NCBI GenBank assembly: GCA_003225175.1
Contig: QIBA01000044.1
Coordinates: 1 to 64,000, forward strand
Source: Acidobacteriota bacterium
GTDB lineage: Bacteria; Acidobacteriota; Terriglobia; Terriglobales; Acidobacteriaceae
Direction: 5' to 3'
DNA: 64,000 nucleotides
In this document: positions 36,879-44,244 of the stretch, piece after piece
How the letters are laid out: every line of letters starts with the position of its first letter
Numbering within the stretch: position 1 is the stretch's first letter
Made by a program: the position numbers and the translations under genes
The notes under the pieces: generated by a model
Told to the model about the DNA's origin: nothing
Databases searched by the model: none
The model's input: the letters and a program-made list of their open reading frames with translations, nothing else

Positions 36879-37553
36879 TCAATCGACGATCTCTCCATCG
36901 CGCATGTGGATCGTGCGGTCGCCGATTGCCGCTGCCTCAGGATTATGGGTGATCATTAGCACCGTCTGCCCAAGCTCTTTGTTGGACTGCCGCAGCATGT
37001 TCAGCACGACATTAGAGTTCTTGGTATCAAGATTTCCAGTAGGCTCGTCCGCAAGAATGAGCGCTGGATGATTGATGAGAGCTCGCGCAAGAGCGACACG
37101 CTGCTGCTCGCCGCCGGAAAGTTCGCTCGGACGATGATGGAGCCTTCCTTTTAGCCCGAGCAGTTCTACGATCTTATCGAAATATTCGCGGTCCATTTGA
37201 CCATTCTTGCCACCGATCTCGTGTGCAATCGCAATGTTTGTCATCGCGTCGAGCGTTGGCAGAAGATTGAATTTCTGGAAGACAAATCCGATTCGGCTTT
37301 TGCGCAAAGCGGTGCGCTTCGCATCGGATAGCTGCGCGAAATCGACGCTATCGATCAGCACGCGGCCGCTGGTTGCGCGAGTAAGCCCACCGAGAATATA
37401 GAACAGCGTAGATTTGCCGCTTCCTGAAGGACCTACAATGCTGACAAATTGGCCGCGCTCGACATTGAAGCTTACTCCGCGCAACGCTGGAACTTCGACC
37501 TTCCCTACGTGGTAGACCTTACTGACGTTGTCTGCCTGAATAATATGCGGCAT
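36879..37553 (-). CDS. ABC transporter ATP-binding protein, LolD/MacB-like
   Basis: 224 residues. Walker A GPSGSGKST, Q-loop FVFQKFNLLPTLDAM, signature LSGGEQQRVALARAL, Walker B ALILADEPTGNLD, H-loop THNP. The EVPALRGVSF start and NLLPTL region are typical of the LolD/FtsE/MacB group, the natural partners of FtsX-type permeases. No permease is adjacent; the orphan permeases at 20.8-26.1 kb and 44.3-47.0 kb are possible partners (inference). The stop overlaps a possible TTG start of the next gene. Confidence 0.93.
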   Translation of the reverse strand: MPHIIQADNVSKVYHVGKVEVPALRGVSFNVERGQFVSIVGPSGSGKSTLFYILGGLTRATSGRVLIDSVDFAQLSDAKRTALRKSRIGFVFQKFNLLPTLDAMTNIAIAHEIGGKNGQMDREYFDKIVELLGLKGRLHHRPSELSGGEQQRVALARALINHPALILADEPTGNLDTKNSNVVLNMLRQSNKELGQTVLMITHNPEAAAIGDRTIHMRDGEIVD

Positions 37554-37583
37554 GCAAACTTTCAGTCTACACGACGGGAAAGA

Positions 37584-37610
37584 TAGAGACTCGGCGATGC
37601 TGCGTCTCTA
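37584..37610. repeat. palindromic interspersed repeat, copy 1
   Basis: TAGAGAC...GCTGCGTCTCTA: outer seven-base arms of an imperfect palindrome. It belongs with similar elements at 40492, 55115 and 58011. This copy lies between the ABC ATPase gene and the receiver gene. Confidence 0.55.
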
Positions 37611-37640
37611 CTGATACCTGGGTCGTGCATATTTTTTCAG

Positions 37641-38081
37641 TCAGCCGGCGGCGATTTGATTGCCCGAGTTCGTGTGCGTCGCGGCAAATTCCGCAGTGAG
37701 CGTCTTCTTCGGTCCACGCTTCTTCACAAGCATAATGCGAATGCGCTCGAGCAGGTCCATCGGCGGGTAAGAACCCTTAGGCAGAAAGATATCCGCGCAA
37801 GTTCCTTTTTCATACATCTTCACTTTCCCGCTGAAGAGGATCATCGGTGTTTCAGGCGCAAGTTCTTTAAGAACCCGGACGACCTCCGCGCCATCCATCT
37901 CGGGCATGACTAAATCAGTAAGAACCAGGTCGATGGCGCCAGAGTGTTGAAACATCTCGATCGCTTCGCGGCCGCTGCTCGCAGTGAGCACACGGTACCC
38001 GCGCGTCTCCAGCATGAATTTTCGAATGGAGAGAGATTGTTCGTTGTCGTCGATGCAGAGAATAACTTTTTTCGGTCGCAT
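37641..38081 (-). CDS. stand-alone response regulator receiver protein
   Basis: About 146 residues from ATG 38081 (MRPKKVILCIDDNEQ); an in-frame start at 38138 lacks coding character. One CheY-like receiver domain with all key residues: DD in CIDDNEQSLSIRKFMLETRGYRV, phospho-acceptor Asp in LVLTDLVMPEMDGAEVV, Ser in MILFSGKV and Lys in DIFLPKGSYPP. A 25-residue basic tail follows. No histidine kinase is near. Confidence 0.9.
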   Translation of the reverse strand: MRPKKVILCIDDNEQSLSIRKFMLETRGYRVLTASSGREAIEMFQHSGAIDLVLTDLVMPEMDGAEVVRVLKELAPETPMILFSGKVKMYEKGTCADIFLPKGSYPPMDLLERIRIMLVKKRGPKKTLTAEFAATHTNSGNQIAAG

Positions 38082-38436
38082 GATTACCGTACGTTTCCAT
38101 CCGCAACATTGCGGAGGGTAGCGGAAGGTCAGTCGCAAAACTCGGAGTAGGCGCAGGAATGGACCCGAAGAAGAGGCGCAGCATCGTTCTTAAGATGCGC
38201 GACGCTCAGCTCAACATTCACAGCGCCCGAACCCGCGTTCAGGACGGCCTGCCTGTTCTAGATTTTCTTTTCGAAAGGGCGATCATTTCGTGAGAAGCGT
38301 TTTTGCATCCTACGGCTGAGTGGTCGCTCGTGTAAAGTGCCTTGGCCGCTAATCGAGATTTTTTTTTGGCAAGAAACTGACAGGAAAAAATCGCTCAAAA
38401 AATGCCGGAAAATTGAGAGGAACAGAATTAGGCAGG
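38082..38436. other. intergenic, no feature recognised
   Basis: About 355 bases between two leftward genes. The part from 38350 to 38430 is A/T-rich with a run of nine T (near 38360), possibly the tail of a weak terminator. No gene or RNA recognised. Confidence 0.35.
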
Positions 38437-39330
38437 CTAGATCCAAATCTCTCCGCGCGCGACTTCCACACAATATCCACCGACGTGTACGTTGACCACT
38501 CTGTCACCGGACTTTTCTGCCCGCACATAAATGCGACTCGGACGGTGCACTTCGATTCCCTGCTCAATGATCGCCGTCTCTCCGCGCTCGATGACTCCGT
38601 GCATTGCCATCCACGCTGCACAACATCCTGCTGCTGATCCAGTCGCCGGATCATCTCCGTTATAAAAAGGCATGCGCGCATGCAGCTTTGCCTGCGGATC
38701 TACGGTCTCTGCAGTGACAAAGTAGAACAAGCCTCCATCGCCACGTTCACGGTACTGGGCCAACTTGCTCCAAGGCCCCACTTTGCGAATGGCGTCTAGT
38801 GAAATGACAGGAACGATGATGAAGGGCAGTCCCGTTGTGAATGTCTGCACTGGAAGATCCGGTGCGATTTCATTGAGTGACAGGCCCGCTGCGCGTGCAA
38901 TCTGTTCCTTGTCGTGTACCACTCCGGCCTCAGGATCGCGTTGACGCATCTCGCCGAATGATTTCTCGGAGTTCTCCTGGCGGAAGCGCACTGGAATTTT
39001 TCCAACTTTCAGATCGAGCCATATCTCGTTGGTGCCACCGAAGCGATGTAAATAGTAGGCCGTACCTAATGTCGGATGCCCGGCAAATGGAAGCTCCTCC
39101 TGAACTGTAAAAATGCGCACGCGTGTGCCGTCGCGGCGCTCCTCTTCAACTTCGCGAGGCAGAATGAACGTCGTCTCGGAAAGATTCGTCTCGCGCGCGA
39201 GCGCCTGCATCTCGCCCGTCGACAATCCACGAGCATCGGTGAAGATCGCAAGCTGATTGCCTTCCAAGGGCCGGTCAGTAAACACATCCATGAATACATA
39301 TGGCAAACGACGGCGAGTGACACTAATCAT
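38437..39330 (-). CDS. PhzF family isomerase/epimerase
   Basis: 297 residues, standard for the family. The diaminopimelate-epimerase-like fold is recognisable from YVFMDVFTDRPLEGNQLAIF, the catalytic Glu in ARETNLSETTFIL, LPFAGHPTLGTAYYL, and GDDPATGSAAGCCAAWM in the C-terminal half. PhzF proteins isomerise aromatic or dihydroaromatic acids; outside phenazine clusters their substrate is unknown, and no phenazine genes occur here. Confidence 0.9.
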   Translation of the reverse strand: MISVTRRRLPYVFMDVFTDRPLEGNQLAIFTDARGLSTGEMQALARETNLSETTFILPREVEEERRDGTRVRIFTVQEELPFAGHPTLGTAYYLHRFGGTNEIWLDLKVGKIPVRFRQENSEKSFGEMRQRDPEAGVVHDKEQIARAAGLSLNEIAPDLPVQTFTTGLPFIIVPVISLDAIRKVGPWSKLAQYRERGDGGLFYFVTAETVDPQAKLHARMPFYNGDDPATGSAAGCCAAWMAMHGVIERGETAIIEQGIEVHRPSRIYVRAEKSGDRVVNVHVGGYCVEVARGEIWI

Positions 39331-39454
39331 ATGGTTATCTTAATTGCAGCGTTGGATGAGATAGGATTGCAGAACGCAGCACGCTGAGTCTAGACGGTGA
39401 TGAAGTCCAGCACGGACCGCAATTACGCATGTTCCGGGACAAGCATTGAGAAAA

Positions 39455-39485
39455 TTGCCTAGTTTTTGATGAATCGCGATACAAT
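39455..39485 (+). promoter_or_regulatory. candidate promoter for the peroxiredoxin leader
   Basis: TTGCCT at 39455-39460 and a good -10 TACAAT at 39480-39485, separated by 19 bases. Transcription would start near 39492, only about ten bases before the leader ATG, so the leader peptide would be translated from an almost leaderless transcript. Confidence 0.45.
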
Positions 39486-39500
39486 CCTGAGAATCGAATT

Positions 39501-39566
39501 ATGAGGATGAACTTCCCGGTCACGTGTTGCGTTTGCTGTTGTCAACCCATGCGGCCTAATTGCTGA
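39501..39566 (+). CDS. Cys-rich leader peptide (21 aa)
   Basis: A 21-codon ORF too short for usual gene finding: ATG 39501, stop TGA 39564-39566. It encodes six cysteines, five of them within six codons (TCCVCCC, codons 8-14) and a last one just before the stop. An internal ATG at codon 3 is an alternative start. Such Cys clustering is very improbable in a random ORF and matches a peptide whose translation reports charged tRNA-Cys. The ribosome site is weak (TGAGAATCG). It lies 85 bases before the peroxiredoxin gene with a terminator in between. Confidence 0.65.
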   Translation: MRMNFPVTCCVCCCQPMRPNC

Positions 39567-39624
39567 CCGGGAACTCGCGCAAGTTCTCTCAAACCCACCC
39601 GGCAGCGCCGGGTGGGTTTTTAAT
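39513..39624 (+). promoter_or_regulatory. candidate cysteine-responsive transcription attenuator
   Basis: Stem 1 pairs 39513-39522 (TTCCCGGTCA) with 39564-39573 (TGACCGGGAA), ten perfect pairs enclosing the Cys codons. The terminator is a 12-pair stem AAACCCACCCGG (39591-39602) / CCGGGTGGGTTT (39608-39619) with a U-rich tail. CCGGG at 39567-39571 can instead pair with CCCGG at 39598-39602, giving an antiterminator. A ribosome stalled at the Cys codons would cover the left half of stem 1 and favour that alternative. The structures are seen; the mechanism is inference. Confidence 0.65.
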
Positions 39625-39650
39625 TTTCAGGTAAAACTAGAGGAGATTCT

Positions 39651-40331
39651 ATGAGCACAGACACAACTGCTTCTCGCATTCCAAGAATCAACGAGCCGGC
39701 TCCGGAGATCGTTGCTAAGTCAACGCACGGCGTGATTCGTCTTACTGACTACACCGCAAAGGGTAAGTGGGTGATGCTGTTCTCCCATCCTGCAGATTTC
39801 ACTCCGGTGTGCACAACTGAGTTCGTTGAGTTCGGACGCCGTCACGCAGAGTTCGAACGCCTCAACGTGCAACCTGTGGGAGTCGCCGTAGACAGTATCT
39901 ACGCGCACATCGCGTGGATTCGTAACATCGAAGACAAATTCAAAGTGAAAGTCCAGTTCCCCCTGATCGCTGACCTGGATCAGAAAGTCGCACAAGCTTT
40001 CGGCATGGTGCACGAAGCAGTCAGCGATACGGCGGCGGTTCGTGCCGTCTTCTTCATCGACCCGAAGAACACGATTCGCGCTTTGCTGTACTATCCCCTG
40101 AACCTCGGCCGTAACGTAGACGAACTCCTTCGTGTCTTCGAAGCGTTGCAGACGGCAGACCAGAACGCTTGCGCCTTACCGGCAAATTGGAAACCGGGAG
40201 ATGCCGTGATCGTTCCTGCCCCGATTACTCAAGCCGACGCCGAAAGACGTGTCCAATCGAACGGCACCGGTGTCGACGTCACAGACTGGTATTTCACGAA
40301 GAAGAAGTTAGCGGCAGCAGCAGCGGACTGA
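39651..40331 (+). CDS. 1-Cys peroxiredoxin (Prx6-like)
   Basis: 226 residues, ATG 39651 after AGAGGAGATTCT. AhpC/TSA fold of the Prx6 class: INEPAPEIVAKSTHGVIRLTDYTAKGKWVMLFSHPADFTPVCTTEFVEF with peroxidatic Cys 54 in the PxxxTxxC motif and the Prx6-like SHPADFTPVC. AHIAWIRNIEDKF, DPKNTIRALLYYPLNLGRNVDELLRV and a C-terminal extension (KPGDAVIVPAPIT, WYFTKKKL) fit the class. A second Cys (NACALP) may or may not resolve. Reduces peroxides in the cytosol. Regulation probably by the upstream Cys leader; the tRNA-Cys gene follows after 74 bases. Confidence 0.93.
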   Translation: MSTDTTASRIPRINEPAPEIVAKSTHGVIRLTDYTAKGKWVMLFSHPADFTPVCTTEFVEFGRRHAEFERLNVQPVGVAVDSIYAHIAWIRNIEDKFKVKVQFPLIADLDQKVAQAFGMVHEAVSDTAAVRAVFFIDPKNTIRALLYYPLNLGRNVDELLRVFEALQTADQNACALPANWKPGDAVIVPAPITQADAERRVQSNGTGVDVTDWYFTKKKLAAAAAD

Positions 40332-40405
40332 CATCAAGTTCGTGGCCGCAGATCAGCGTTCAGGAGCTTATTGCTGATCGCTAATTGCTTGTAGCTGCTT
40401 TTCAA

Positions 40406-40480
40406 GCACCGGTCGCCAAGTGGCTAAGGCACGAGCCTGCAAAGCTCGCATCGCCGGTTCAACTCCGGCCCGGTGCTCCA
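40406..40480 (+). tRNA. tRNA-Cys (GCA)
   Basis: 75 bases with encoded CCA. Acceptor GCACCGG pairs perfectly with CCGGTGC, discriminator U, anticodon arm CGAGC-CTGCAAA-GCTCG gives anticodon GCA, T-arm GCCGG-TTCAACT-CCGGC. It is in the same direction as the peroxiredoxin with its Cys-codon leader and could be read from the same transcript. Confidence 0.95.
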
Positions 40481-40491
40481 GATTCGAGCCG

Positions 40492-40521
40492 AAAGAGACG
40501 CAGCATGCTGCGTCTCTTTTC
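40492..40521 (+). terminator. palindromic terminator after tRNA-Cys (also repeat copy 2)
   Basis: A perfect palindrome of 28 bases (40492-40519; starts AAAGAGACGCAGC, ends mirrored) with TTTT at its end, 12 bases after the tRNA. It can act as a terminator for the tRNA-Cys transcript, and its core GAGACGCAGC/GCTGCGTCTC is the same as in the repeats at 37584, 55115 and 58011. Confidence 0.7.
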
Positions 40522-40549
40522 CTGTTAGCGAAAACTTGGCGCAGGGATC

Positions 40550-40573
40550 TGGCGGAAGCGTGTGCGAGTCGAA
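40550..40573. repeat. attL-like copy of the tRNA-Sec 3' end
   Basis: 24 bases from tggcggaagcg to gagtcgaa, identical to 44146-44169. Upstream and downstream bases differ between the two copies, so the homology stops sharply, as at a recombination core. Confidence 0.8.
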
Positions 40574-40592
40574 TCCGCGCATAAACGTTAAC

Positions 40593-40603
40593 TCAACAAC
40601 TTA
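40593..40603. repeat. inverted recombinase-site candidate, left island end
   Basis: TCAACAACTTA here is the exact inverted copy of TAAGTTGTTGA at 44132-44142 next to the other core. When the two island ends are joined in a circle these words flank the core as inverted sites, as expected of core-type integrase binding sites. Confidence 0.45.
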
Positions 40604-40653
40604 CAGCGCAGCAGATGGCATGAAATACACCGTTTTAGATGTAAGGCAGCGTG

Positions 40654-40673
40654 AACGGCACGGAAACAGCACG
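40654..40673. repeat. direct repeat near left island end (arm-type candidate)
   Basis: AACGGCACGGAAACAGCACG; matches 18 of 20 bases of the segment at 44102-44121, same orientation. Each copy itself is two GGCACG/AGCACG-like half words. Position near both ends suits integrase arm sites. Confidence 0.45.
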
Positions 40674-40819
40674 GGAAAAGTGGAACGCAGTTTCAAATGC
40701 AAGTCAGCGGATGACATCAGAAACCTTAGGAATCATGCCTAAACGGATAAACGGAGCGCGGATAGAGCGCACCGTTCTCCGGAAGAACGGTAGGGGTAAA
40801 ATCCTCCTACTCGACCGCC

Positions 40820-41077
40820 ATGACCAATCCCAAAGAAGACCTCCTCCGAGAACGAAAGACTGTGGTCGTTTTCGACATTTGCTCCTCAACAACGATTCTC
40901 GAAGACCTCAAAGAAAGTGATAACCAACAACAATGGCGAAACCTGCTGATAGGGCTGAAGAATTTCCTAGTTGAGGAACGCGAAGGCTATGTGCCCTTCG
41001 ACCTTTACAAATTTGCCTGCGGCTTGTGTGAGTCCTCGTCAATGCGCGTTGTGACGAATCGGAGATACATGACGTAA
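40820..41077 (+). pseudogene. 5' fragment of a nucleotidyl cyclase-like gene
   Basis: An ORF beginning MTNPKEDLLRERKTVVVFDICSSTTILEDLKESD. VVVFDICSSTTILEDL matches the first metal-binding strand of class III cyclase domains (FxDIxxST), and EEREGYVPFDLYKF is where KFxGDG should follow. Instead the frame runs into CGLCESSSMRVVTNRRYMT and stops, so the second metal Asp and all later motifs are missing. It is read as a truncated remnant, cut at about 41015, within the island. Confidence 0.5.
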
Positions 41078-41116
41078 TTTGGTAGGCTTCAGGCCACGGA
41101 GTCAGATACCGGCTTG

Positions 41117-41414
41117 TCACACTTGAAGTGCCTCATCTGCTGCTTTGATGAGCGCAATTCCAGTCGCTTCAGCGACCTTTCGGTATATCTCCTGTTGACC
41201 GTCAGGAATGTCATACTCCTGCCCGATTGTTTCCTTGCAATGGCTCATGTCTTTGAATTTCGCGTCTACGATTCCGCTTCGGTGACCTATGAGGTTGCGA
41301 AGCAAGCTTCTCATCGATCATTTGATTCGGCACGGGCAGATTCTCCGGAATCAGGCGATTGCTAAGACTGCGAAATTTGGCGGCTATGTTGGCTTTGCGA
41401 GAACTGCTGCGCAT
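41117..41414 (-). pseudogene. unassigned coding remnants downstream of the immunity gene
   Basis: Two overlapping reverse-strand frames (41211-41414 and 41117-41314) look protein-like in complementary halves: SRKANIAAKFRSLSNRLIPENLPVPNQMI in the first, then GIVDAKFKDMSHCKETIGQEYDIPDGQQEIYRKVAEATGIALIKAADEAL in the second. A single frameshift near 41320 would join them. This may be an orphan C-terminal toxin fragment or another broken island gene; no family recognised. Confidence 0.3.
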
Positions 41415-41462
41415 TTGATTCCATAAAACTTACGCCTATCATATGACCTGACAGGCGTGAGT

Positions 41463-41915
41463 CTAATCTTCAAGACCTTCTTTGATGCTTTTGGAATCGA
41501 CCAGGGACTGGATCAACTCGTCCCGAAGATCCGAGCCAACTCTGTCAGGTGAGATTTCCTGGGAACACTTCAGTAATCCAAGCACAATTTCTGAGTTTGT
41601 TTCGACCTGGAGTTTGAGCGCCTGCCGAAACGCGTCTTGGGCCAAACTTGCAGAATCCTGAACATTTAGCAGGAACCAGCCTAGCTCCACATGCGCCTCC
41701 ACAAAGCCAGGTTCAAGCTTGATCGCACGTCTAAGAATTTCTTCGACTTCCTCAGGGGTTCCCTCGTCTCCTAGCTGCAAGAGTCTTGCTTCCCAGACAA
41801 GCAGTTCCGATGTTGGCTCTCCTGACAGCTCAGCTTTGCGGATCACATCCAAGGCCGATGCATACTCATTCTGCTGCATAAGGACATTGATCGAGTCTCT
41901 CAACTTCTGATTCAC
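41463..41915 (-). CDS. small helical repeat protein, probable immunity protein for the RHS toxin
   Basis: 150 residues, start overlapping the RHS stop (41912-41915), so translationally coupled. Predicted all-helical with TPR-like units: LMQQNEYASALDVIRKAELSGEPTSELLVWEARLLQLGD, EEVEEILRRAIKLEPGFVEAHVELGWFLLNVQDSASLAQDAFRQALKL. An acidic protein directly after an RHS tip is the usual place of the immunity gene in polymorphic toxin systems; function is inferred from that position. Confidence 0.65.
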   Translation of the reverse strand: MNQKLRDSINVLMQQNEYASALDVIRKAELSGEPTSELLVWEARLLQLGDEGTPEEVEEILRRAIKLEPGFVEAHVELGWFLLNVQDSASLAQDAFRQALKLQVETNSEIVLGLLKCSQEISPDRVGSDLRDELIQSLVDSKSIKEGLED

Positions 41916-44077
41916 TTTGGCCTTTTTTGGGACAATCGCTCTGCATTTTCTATCAGCTTCTTCATTTGTGCTGCCTTTCTGTCCCCACCTTTCGCGAGTT
42001 CTTTTAGTTCTCCTAAAGTCTTGTCGCCGTATTCTGAATGATACGACTTTGATCGTTTTGCGGAACCAGAGATCTGCTCGTCGGCTTTTTTGCTGTCTCT
42101 TGCTTTTTCGGCGTCCTGTTTTGCCTTGCTTTCCTTGTCTCCTTTTTTGTCTTGGTTGTTTCCAGAATTGGCCGGAGGCGAGGCAGACTTCGTGTCCTCG
42201 GCGGGGACAGCTGGAGGGGTCGATGCCTTACGATCCTTACTGAAAAATAGCTGGTATTCGACTGCAATCACCAACTGCGTAAAAAGCATTGCTTTCTGGA
42301 GGTAATCAGTGTGCTCCCACTTGCATTTGTAATAGCATTCGTTTGGAGTCCTCAGCATTAGGTGTCCATCTAGATCATTTAGACCTATAGGGTTGTTGCG
42401 AACATACGTGTAAAGATTTAGGGTTTGCGGATCTTCCAAGTCTGCGTAAGGAATTGGGTCTGGATCTTCACTCCAGTCCGGGCTCATCCAACGTCCCATT
42501 GAAGCAGCGTAATATCTAGCTCCGAAGTAATCCAGATTGGACTCGGTGTCTCGTTCCTTCCCCGTAAACTTGTAGTGATTCGACGCATTGCTAGGTGAGC
42601 ACGAAACTTCCTGCCCGAAGGGAGCATAGATGCAATTAGAGACGGTACTGCCTACCGAGTCAGTCATTAGGCGCGTGCTCTCAAGATGATCCGCGTGATA
42701 GTACTGATTACTCGCAATTGCCGAAGACGTGCTCTTGGCGATTAGCTTGCCATCCGCAAAAATGTAGTCGGTCCATCCAACCGCGTTTTTTTCAGCTATC
42801 ACTTGCCCATTTAAGTAAAGGTATTCTGTAAACGAACCACCGACGTCTTTTCTGACTCGTTCTCCATCTGGTCCGTACGTGTAGGTCGCTCCGCCGCCGT
42901 CTATAGTCTTCACCCGGCTCTCGGCGTCATAAGCGTAGCTGTGCGCACCGTCCCACTGGAGGTTTCCCGCCGCGTCATAATTCCAACCTGAAAGACGATT
43001 GTTTTGGTCAAAAGCATTCTGGAAGCCCCATGTTCCAGAGGAATTCATATTCCCATATTGGTCGTAAGACAAGGATACGTTGAATCCGCCGTCACTCTGA
43101 GAGCCATTAAGAATCCGATTGAGCTGATCGTAGCTGAAAGACTGGGTCTTTGCGCTCGTGAGGTTATCGATAATGCTCATCACATTACCGTTGTTGCCGT
43201 TTCCGTGGCTCGCATCGGGATACGTGTAGCTCTTGTTGAATAACACTTGGCTGTTATTTGTGTTCGTTTGGAGGATCGCGCTCGCCTGCAAGCGATTGTT
43301 AAAGCTCACGGTCTCTTGGACACCGTTGCCATACGTTCCAAGACGGAAGGAACCAGCAGGCCAATAAGCCCAAGCGCTTGGAGAAAGTGTGGCTGTGAAA
43401 TACGGAGAATTCACTGTCGAACCGCCATAACTGTCGTAATTGACAAGGCTGCCATAACTGTCGTAATTGACAAGGCTGAGGCGATTTGCGCCGTTGTCAT
43501 GACGGAAGGTGACTTTCCGGCCACTCGGATACGTGAGCGACTTCATATTTCCGGCCAAATCGTATTCCGCAGTGATGTGCGTTGTGTAGTCACACGCGCT
43601 GGGGATACACCAAGTCTCACCTATGATCCTTCCCATCTTGTCGTAGGAGGGATCAAAGGCATCATTCACGTCGTTCGATGCATGTGTAAGGCGACCAACG
43701 GAATAACCGTGGTTTGCCGCGTCGTAGTAAAACTCGCGGCTCGCAGAACCATCTGAATACGTCTTGATCGTCAGACGATTGATCGCGTCATAACCATAGT
43801 TCACAGTCATTCCGCGTGCATCCGTCTTGTGCAACAAGTTGCCGTCAGCGTCATATCCATTAATGCAGGTGGCGCTTGACCAAATGCCGTAACAAATCGT
43901 GCCGGACTCTCCATTTGCGGCGGTAATTAATTCCGAAAGCGAATCGTAGGTAAACGTACGAGGAGTTCGCGCAGTTTGTGTACCATCCCCCACTTGATTG
44001 ACCGACTTCAGATTGACATCAGAACAACGATGAACGTGTATGGGGACGTGGTCACGGACGAAATGTCCACGGCTCAT
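41912..44077 (-). CDS. RHS-repeat protein, N-terminally truncated, with variable C-terminal tip
   Basis: 721 residues. Many YD repeats from about residue 40 (RTFTYDSLSELITAANGE, INGYDADGNLLHKTDARGMTVNYGYDAINRL) to the RHS core end (YKFTGKERDTESNLDYFGARYYAASMGRWMSPDWSEDP...LNLYTYVRNNPIGLNDLDG). After that comes a unique 150-residue tip: one hydrophobic segment, a Lys/Ala/Glu-rich linker and an end reading YGDKTLGELKELAKGGDRKAAQMKKLIENAERLSQ. Full RHS toxins exceed 1200 residues and have export signals; this one lacks both. The first 35 residues are not RHS-like, and the gene ends next to the island border. Confidence 0.85.
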   Translation of the reverse strand: MSRGHFVRDHVPIHVHRCSDVNLKSVNQVGDGTQTARTPRTFTYDSLSELITAANGESGTICYGIWSSATCINGYDADGNLLHKTDARGMTVNYGYDAINRLTIKTYSDGSASREFYYDAANHGYSVGRLTHASNDVNDAFDPSYDKMGRIIGETWCIPSACDYTTHITAEYDLAGNMKSLTYPSGRKVTFRHDNGANRLSLVNYDSYGSLVNYDSYGGSTVNSPYFTATLSPSAWAYWPAGSFRLGTYGNGVQETVSFNNRLQASAILQTNTNNSQVLFNKSYTYPDASHGNGNNGNVMSIIDNLTSAKTQSFSYDQLNRILNGSQSDGGFNVSLSYDQYGNMNSSGTWGFQNAFDQNNRLSGWNYDAAGNLQWDGAHSYAYDAESRVKTIDGGGATYTYGPDGERVRKDVGGSFTEYLYLNGQVIAEKNAVGWTDYIFADGKLIAKSTSSAIASNQYYHADHLESTRLMTDSVGSTVSNCIYAPFGQEVSCSPSNASNHYKFTGKERDTESNLDYFGARYYAASMGRWMSPDWSEDPDPIPYADLEDPQTLNLYTYVRNNPIGLNDLDGHLMLRTPNECYYKCKWEHTDYLQKAMLFTQLVIAVEYQLFFSKDRKASTPPAVPAEDTKSASPPANSGNNQDKKGDKESKAKQDAEKARDSKKADEQISGSAKRSKSYHSEYGDKTLGELKELAKGGDRKAAQMKKLIENAERLSQKRPK
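43424..43477. repeat. 27-bp tandem duplication inside the RHS gene
   Basis: The unit starting gccataactgtcgtaattga is present twice in exact tandem. In the protein it adds one copy of the nine-residue phrase SLVNYDSYG in frame, so it does not disrupt the gene. The perfect match shows a recent event. Confidence 0.9.
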
Positions 44078-44145: not shown

Positions 44146-44244
44146 TGGCGGAAGCGTGTGCGAGTCGAACACACCCCTGCCAGGTCGAGCCTGACAAGCG
44201 CCGGTTTTGAAGACCGGGAGGATCACCGGATCCCATTCGCTTCC
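44146..44244 (-). tRNA. selC: tRNA-Sec (UCA), selC
   Basis: 99 bases with encoded CCA on the reverse strand. The acceptor begins GGAAGCG and pairs with CGCTTCC, discriminator G. The D-arm is long (GGGATC-CGGT-GATCCT), the anticodon arm is CCGGT-CTTCAAA-ACCGG with anticodon TCA, the variable arm is long (TGTCAGG/CCTGGCA), and the T-arm holds TTCGACT. Long acceptor-T and variable arms and a UCA anticodon are diagnostic of selenocysteine tRNA. It implies that the organism decodes UGA as Sec; selA, selB and selD are not in the window. Confidence 0.95.

Follow-up and report, generated by a model that had tools for sequence, protein, structure and literature searches.

In the 64,000-nucleotide (nt) stretch of an Acidobacteriota genome analyzed here (the window; contig QIBA01000044.1 of assembly GCA_003225175.1), a short open reading frame (ORF) rich in cysteine codons and an intrinsic terminator stand ahead of a peroxiredoxin gene and a tRNA-Cys gene of a second type. 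Judged from sequence, this element is very probably a ribosome-mediated transcription attenuator reading the supply of Cys-tRNA(Cys), a reading based on the anatomy of the locus, the conservation of the leader, its geometry, pairing statistics and gene order. Soil Acidobacteriota cells would thus probably switch on the peroxiredoxin and the tRNA-Cys when charged cysteine tRNA is short. On balance, it is also likely that an accessory tRNA-Cys (elsewhere a tRNA-Sec behind the peroxiredoxin) is transcribed once Cys codons can no longer be read, giving an autogenous tRNA-supply loop together with a peroxidase for sulfur-poor cells. The features of the locus are as follows.

39501 to 39566, plus strand: leader ORF, 21 codons long, reading MRMNFPVTCCVCCCQPMRPNC; Cys takes up six codons, five of which fall within codons 9-14
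39513 to 39522, plus strand: region 1, TTCCCGGTCA, partner of region 2 in the untranslated leader
39525 to 39542, plus strand: Cys-codon cluster, codons 9-14 (TGT TGC GTT TGC TGT TGT), the proposed stall site
39563 to 39573, plus strand: region 2, the proposed antiterminator strand at the leader stop codon, including TGACCGGGAA (39564-39573)
39591 to 39619, plus strand: regions 3 and 4, the intrinsic terminator AAACCCACCCGGCAGCGCCGGGTGGGTTT, a 13-pair stem followed by a T run (the U tail)
39651 to 40331, plus strand: peroxiredoxin of the PRK13189 type, 226 amino acids (NF009668, Pfam AhpC-TSA and 1-cysPrx_C)
40406 to 40480, plus strand: second-type (type-2) tRNA-Cys (GCA), beginning 75 nt past the peroxiredoxin stop
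about 40492 to 40521, plus strand: palindromic terminator-like sequence with a U tail at the end of the unit, recognized by eye
38437 to 39330, minus strand: divergent PhzF-family gene (TIGR00654), a syntenic landmark

The original prediction, made from the letters of this stretch, had placed the Cys-rich ORF and the tRNA-Cys correctly; its terminator with a U-tract is present, although the stem has 13 pairs rather than 12, and the palindrome that it proposed as the closing terminator can be seen by eye but was not listed by the terminator scan. The predicted ten-base-pair stem (39513-39522 with 39564-39573) also holds, as TTCCCGGTCA and TGACCGGGAA are exact reverse complements and are paired in the folded leader of the window, and the predicted competitor of the terminator is available, with CCGGG (39567-39571) complementary to CCCGG (39598-39602) and able to pair with it in the nascent RNA.

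In the proposed mechanism, transcription would start just upstream of the leader. With plentiful Cys-tRNA, the ribosome would translate past the Cys cluster, reach the stop codon and cover region 2, allowing the 3:4 terminator to form; with Cys-tRNA short, the ribosome would stall on the Cys codons and leave region 2 free to pair with region 3, no terminator would form, and RNA polymerase would go on to transcribe the peroxiredoxin gene together with the second tRNA-Cys gene. In some relatives, the read-through would instead reach a peroxiredoxin gene followed by tRNA-Sec, or a tRNA-Cys gene alone. Such a unit would raise peroxidase and cysteine tRNA under cysteine or sulfur limitation. What we infer in this scheme is the use of the promoter, the translation of the leader, ribosome stalling, the resulting read-through and the trigger; a shortage of sulfur or cysteine is at least as likely a trigger as oxidized cysteine, itself a guess.

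The conservation of the leader was followed in 53 peroxiredoxin loci from named genomes (nearest titles, Acidobacteria metagenome-assembled genomes) and 30 taken from 200 genomes of the family, of which 82 were usable for upstream regions and 68 were kept once near-copies had been removed. Forty-eight of the 68, termed PrxA, encode proteins at least 57% identical to the window copy (one, L037, is titled Planctomycetota); the remaining 20 are at most 55% identical and include L002, the paralogue in the window's own genome. Counting ORFs in the 400 nt upstream, at least four Cys within six codons were found at 19 of the 48 non-redundant PrxA loci and at least three at 27 of 48, where dinucleotide shuffles of all 68 regions expect 0.11 and 2.6, respectively. 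The reverse strand of the same 48 regions gave one and two, and the 20 more distant peroxiredoxins gave none at the higher threshold and one at the lower. A second subfamily, PrxB, accounts for 38 of the 46 peroxiredoxins found beside a type-2 tRNA-Cys and is just 34-40% identical to the window's protein; we take LsfA of Pseudomonas aeruginosa to be related to it by sequence. In 40 PrxB upstream regions, taken in listing order with those beside a type-2 tRNA excluded, at least three Cys in six codons occurred in 25 and at least four in eight (reverse strand, three and none). The Cys leader is therefore present upstream of both PrxA and PrxB, and, since the tRNA-linked peroxiredoxins are mostly PrxB, leader and tRNA are common to two enzyme subfamilies.

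Pairing statistics were computed for the 83 leader loci at which a hairpin is predicted (138 of 147 upstream regions were kept after near-copy removal), and the resulting z-scores against shuffles, coming from loci related by descent, are descriptive rather than independent tests. The terminators gave a median z of -3.07 and a mean of -3.47, with 65 of 81 below -2 (two loci with spreadless shuffles were set aside), and for R2:R3, in which the strand behind the Cys codons pairs with the terminator's 5' arm, the mean was -1.80, with 55 of 83 below -1. In the window itself the region 1:2 stem is strong (z -2.39). Terminators of -10 kcal/mol or lower were found at 23 of 48 PrxA loci, 32 of 37 peroxiredoxin-tRNA loci, 17 of 40 PrxB loci and 6 of 13 loci with a tRNA alone (eight by pattern). 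A strict CCCACC..GGTGGG-U terminator pattern occurred 16 times, in 16 of the 200 family genomes, and by coordinates 15 of the 16 stand at a peroxiredoxin or type-2 tRNA-Cys locus. Additionally, at 65 of the 83 loci (3.1 expected) the 130 nt preceding the Cys cluster hold a sigma70-like promoter.

The geometry was measured at the 75 of 83 loci whose R2:R3 duplex reaches -9 kcal/mol or lower. The median distance from the first Cys codon to the beginning of region 2 is 27 nt (10-90% range 18-32), and that from the start of the stop codon to its end is 2 nt, with 72 of 75 loci between -20 and +25; region 2 could therefore be exposed by a Cys-stalled ribosome and masked by a terminating one, which is the classical geometry. 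At L245 and L247 the terminator arms have changed to CCCGCC/GGCGGG from CCCACC/GGTGGG and region 2 is still complementary. Where an RV motif spells region 2, Arg is encoded by CGG in 26 of 30 leaders vs 49 of 280 other Arg codons, a pointer that RNA pairing rather than the peptide is constrained; Cys codon use in the leaders is near equal (TGC 292, TGT 282). Without a ribosome, the window leader folds into the 1:2 stem and the terminator, and when the ribosome occupies the cluster's last Cys codon, R2:R3 pairs in the nascent RNA. This pairing is not the minimum with the ribosome on the first Cys codon, nor after the whole terminator has been synthesized. Combined, the geometry, the pairing statistics and the codon choice back the two-state attenuator of the original prediction.

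Several results weigh against this reading. Loss of the Cys-rich ORF or of the terminator at orthologous loci had been named beforehand as a refuting outcome; beside the 27 PrxA loci that keep a Cys cluster, 21 of 48 fall below three Cys in six codons. The leader was likewise not found at 15 of the 40 PrxB loci without a type-2 tRNA, nor upstream of L002, and five of the 13 tRNA-only loci do not have a leader-terminator pair. Taken over all loci, region 1:2 pairing is weak, with a mean z of -0.65 and 32 of 83 below -1; in the window the R2:R3 pairing is unremarkable by itself (z -0.89), and a consensus promoter scan detects no site. The minimum-energy fold of the full-length window RNA with a ribosome on the Cys codons remains the terminator, so the switch must be kinetic. 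Among the 21 leaderless PrxA loci, two (L016 and L078) have another peroxiredoxin just upstream, and the leader may therefore sit at the head of an operon; L067, L026 and L074 retain a terminator of the CCCACC type with two adjacent Cys only, as judged by eye.

The window's genome carries two different tRNA-Cys genes: type 1 adjoins a tRNA-Gly (G000:C56:37557) and type 2 lies in the window. The original prediction spoke of a peroxidase controlled with its own sensing tRNA, and a tRNA-Cys is indeed linked, although it is of the second type and not the only one in the genome. The type-1 pattern was found in 52 of 60 family genomes and the type-2 pattern in 58 of 200; in a sample of the phylum, type 2 occurred in 31 of 396 genomes, every one in the window's family. 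Sixty-one type-2 places were listed and 59 were examined (two in G052, one of which is L080, were excluded). A same-strand peroxiredoxin lies just upstream at 46 of the 59, and at these peroxiredoxin-tRNA loci the same check gave at least three Cys in six codons upstream at 45 of 46 and at least four at 43. Peroxiredoxin and tRNA are separated by a median of 53 nt (19-300), and in the 46 gaps neither a promoter-like site (shuffles expect 0.5) nor a terminator was found. A terminator follows within 120 nt of the tRNA at 10 of these 46 loci and at none of the eight leader-bearing tRNA-only loci. A divergent PhzF gene stands upstream at 29 of 48 PrxA loci and 28 of 46 peroxiredoxin-tRNA loci.

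At the other 13 of the 59 loci no peroxiredoxin was found upstream within the stretch covered. At eight of them, from three genera (L203-L207, L215, L250 and L254), the tRNA gene is preceded at 52-84 nt by a Cys leader with a CCCACC..GGTGGG-U terminator, and the interval between terminator and tRNA holds no promoter-like site; upstream of the terminator, such a site scores 9 or 10 of 12 at six of the eight and 8 at L203, and none was found at L254. By automatic count, nine of the 13 have at least three Cys in six codons and seven at least four; the ninth, L216, shows no terminator of this pattern in the 300 nt read, and L224, L251, L252 and L253 fall below three. A PhzF neighbour stands beside seven of the 13, five of which keep the leader (L224 and L252 do not). 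Because tRNA-only loci share this divergent neighbour with the window, the peroxiredoxin appears to have been lost from, or never inserted into, loci of the same make-up. As a control, the strand-oriented 400 nt upstream of 31 tRNA genes of the window's genome (one with less than 400 nt) held at least four Cys in six codons at none and at least three at one. The kept order at 46 of 59 loci, the 46 gaps without a promoter-like site and the eight tRNA-only leader loci together support the suggestion that the tRNA-Cys belongs to the regulated unit.

The attenuator might instead serve the peroxiredoxin only, with the tRNA-Cys a neighbour expressed from elsewhere. Leader-bearing peroxiredoxin loci are indeed often without such a tRNA: a same-strand Cys or Sec tRNA follows within 400 nt at 12 of 27 leader-bearing PrxA loci (vs 4 of 21 leaderless) and at 6 of 25 leader-bearing PrxB loci (vs 2 of 15). 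This explanation is nevertheless unlikely, in view of the short gaps with neither promoter-like site nor terminator and of the eight loci, five beside PhzF, where leader and terminator precede a tRNA with no peroxiredoxin. Counted separately, tRNA-Sec genes on the same strand follow the peroxiredoxin within 400 nt at 6 of 48 PrxA and 8 of the 40 PrxB loci, and tRNA-Cys genes at 11 of 48 PrxA loci; G176 contributes to both sets (L078 and L302), and the PrxB locus L309 is covered for 90 nt only. At L009 a single tRNA-Sec lies on the opposite strand.

Other tRNA arrangements were seen beside these. The genome G190 (L251-L253) has three type-2 tRNA-Cys genes with neither a peroxiredoxin upstream in the stretch covered nor a Cys-cluster ORF. 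L075 (G011) carries a third kind of tRNA-Cys, with the anticodon loop CTGCAAC, 112 nt behind a leader-bearing peroxiredoxin, and in G047, G014, G027 and G045 a type-1 tRNA-Cys lies, by coordinates, about 3-4 kb from the peroxiredoxin locus. In the window a tRNA-SeC lies at 44146-44244 on the minus strand, 3.7 kb beyond the tRNA-Cys, and in the relative L061 tRNA-Cys and tRNA-SeC stand in succession behind the peroxiredoxin. Between the two tRNA genes of the window are a long minus-strand ORF, presumably RHS/YD-repeat-like, and a smaller neighbour (41912-44077), a pair that is perhaps an insertion. An Rfam search of 37000-43000 returned tRNA as the sole family above its cut-off, with no T-box among the matches to E = 1; Hrs10 (31.5 bits, cut-off 108), Plastid-ycf2 (30.8 bits, cut-off 65.7) and STnc40 (29.5 and 25.8 bits, cut-off 45) were below threshold and were treated as chance.

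The peroxiredoxin of the window matches NF009668 at 274.1 bits (cut-off 211) and both Pfam AhpC-TSA and 1-cysPrx_C above their cut-offs, and with the Cys in FTPVCTTE, which we take to be the peroxidatic-Cys motif of Prx6/1-Cys peroxiredoxins, it has the domains and motif of that group. The original prediction calls it a 1-Cys peroxiredoxin, a kind with no resolving cysteine, but the window copy has two Cys (C54 and C174); a single Cys is present in 26 of 48 orthologues. For PrxB, the top matches of L210 among solved structures are 6p0w and 7kuu, with entries named peroxiredoxin 6 and 1-Cys peroxiredoxin at lower ranks.

Sulfur genes extend the set of loci. In G153, the sixteenth strict terminator (L266) precedes a cysD-like gene, and a Cys ORF ending CSLCCACVSSGAGG lies immediately upstream; a 120-residue piece of the gene matches CysD models (PRK05253, 5e-40), below full-length cut-offs since it is partial, and neither peroxiredoxin nor tRNA was found at this locus. 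Among 34 records of the PAPS-reductase family, an ORF with at least four Cys in six codons lies upstream on the gene's strand at seven distinct loci (with L169 and L172 counted once), and reverse-strand Cys ORFs occur at one locus, L175. By eye, the Cys ORF is followed by a terminator-like hairpin at the sulfate-assimilation loci L169 (G108, of the window's genus), L185 (G039) and L193 (G015); at L173, L191 and L198 it lies upstream of sulfate genes with no clear terminator, and at L183 the ORF is more distant. A wider cysteine attenuator regulon that includes sulfate-assimilation loci is possible. In the window's genome, a loose Cys-cluster pattern (181 matches vs 75 in the control) was unusable for defining a regulon, and no second leader-terminator pair was recognized among the loci at hand (80 overlapping records). 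This genome (G000, rated 99% complete) gave no match to PAPS_reduct (CysH/CysD) and may therefore depend on other sulfur sources; three of six genomes of its genus gave a match.

A nascent Cys-rich peptide could itself sense a metal or an oxidant and halt its own ribosome. Clusters of Cys are able to bind metals, and a peroxidase would be a redox target. A copper-related upstream ORF has also been published (PMC9426467, in the portion available). The leaders, however, share clustered Cys codons with no fixed motif (CCVCCC, CTCCCC, CMCCCC, CCCCCC, CAGCC), Cys ORFs also stand at cysD and other sulfate-assimilation loci, and the codons are constrained at region 2, all of which make a peptide sensor decidedly improbable. 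Even less probable is that the terminated leader RNA or its peptide acts in trans with the terminator as its 3' end: a short terminated RNA is predicted and a trans-acting leader peptide, peTrpL, is described in the available part of one report (PMC7298713), yet in the loci examined the element lies just upstream of a peroxiredoxin, a tRNA or cysD, and its region 2 complements the terminator arm. That Cys codons fall near an ordinary terminator by chance, conceivable for so short an ORF and with one of 31 control tRNA genes reaching three Cys in six codons, is refuted by the conservation already described (19 of 48 loci at four or more vs 0.11 expected in 68 regions, and 0 of 31 controls).

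Ribosome-mediated attenuation by leader peptides is classically known from the trp, his, phe and leu operons. Like these, the proposed Cys attenuator combines a short ORF with clustered codons, alternative hairpins, an intrinsic terminator and a stop codon over region 2; unlike these, its targets are a peroxidase and a tRNA gene rather than biosynthesis or a synthetase. In the accessible parts of the open-licence PMC literature searched, Cys leaders are described before cysteine genes and cysS and none before a peroxiredoxin or tRNA gene, and no leader peptide was found there that governs the tRNA gene for its own codons. If true, the element would be the first leader-peptide attenuator on a tRNA gene in the literature searched, with feedback through its own codons.

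Several of the closest published systems also have short ORFs or leader peptides with Cys codons. Mycobacterial polycysteine leaderless short ORFs respond to cysteine as a signal, and, as far as the available text of these reports goes, act on cysteine biosynthetic genes by translation attenuation, whereas here an intrinsic terminator precedes a peroxiredoxin and a tRNA (PMC9094748, PMC13236596). The window locus has no cysteine biosynthetic target; cysD and sulfate loci with Cys ORFs occur in some relatives. The uORFC-8-2 motif upstream of cysS in Rhodobacterales, presumed in the portion available to work by ribosome-mediated attenuation, likewise joins a Cys-codon upstream ORF (two tandem Cys) to a terminator, but differs in its target, cysteinyl-tRNA synthetase, in having two conserved Cys codons and in its phylum (PMC8632094). 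Candidate cysteine leader peptides before cysteine operons of Actinobacteria differ in that the other attenuator elements are missing, and the part of the report available names neither a tRNA nor a peroxiredoxin as target (PMC1262725). The PBC-28-3 motif is, like the element of the window, a cis element upstream of an (ahpC-like) peroxiredoxin; it is a long stem at the start codon, proposed to bind protein, with no Cys upstream ORF described in the accessible text (PMC8632094).

On the physiological side, the available portion of one report on Pseudomonas aeruginosa describes a strong increase of the 1-Cys peroxiredoxin LsfA under sulfur starvation, terms the rationale for antioxidants under this condition largely unexplored, and proposes as an explanation the iron set free by a failure of Fe-S cluster synthesis (PMC12581299). 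Unlike what is proposed for the peroxiredoxin of the window, no leader-peptide control of LsfA is described in that portion (PMC12581299). A Cys-tRNA-sensing attenuator on a peroxiredoxin would join sulfur status and peroxide defence directly and, if true, would provide a direct RNA-level route to peroxidase induction in sulfur shortage.

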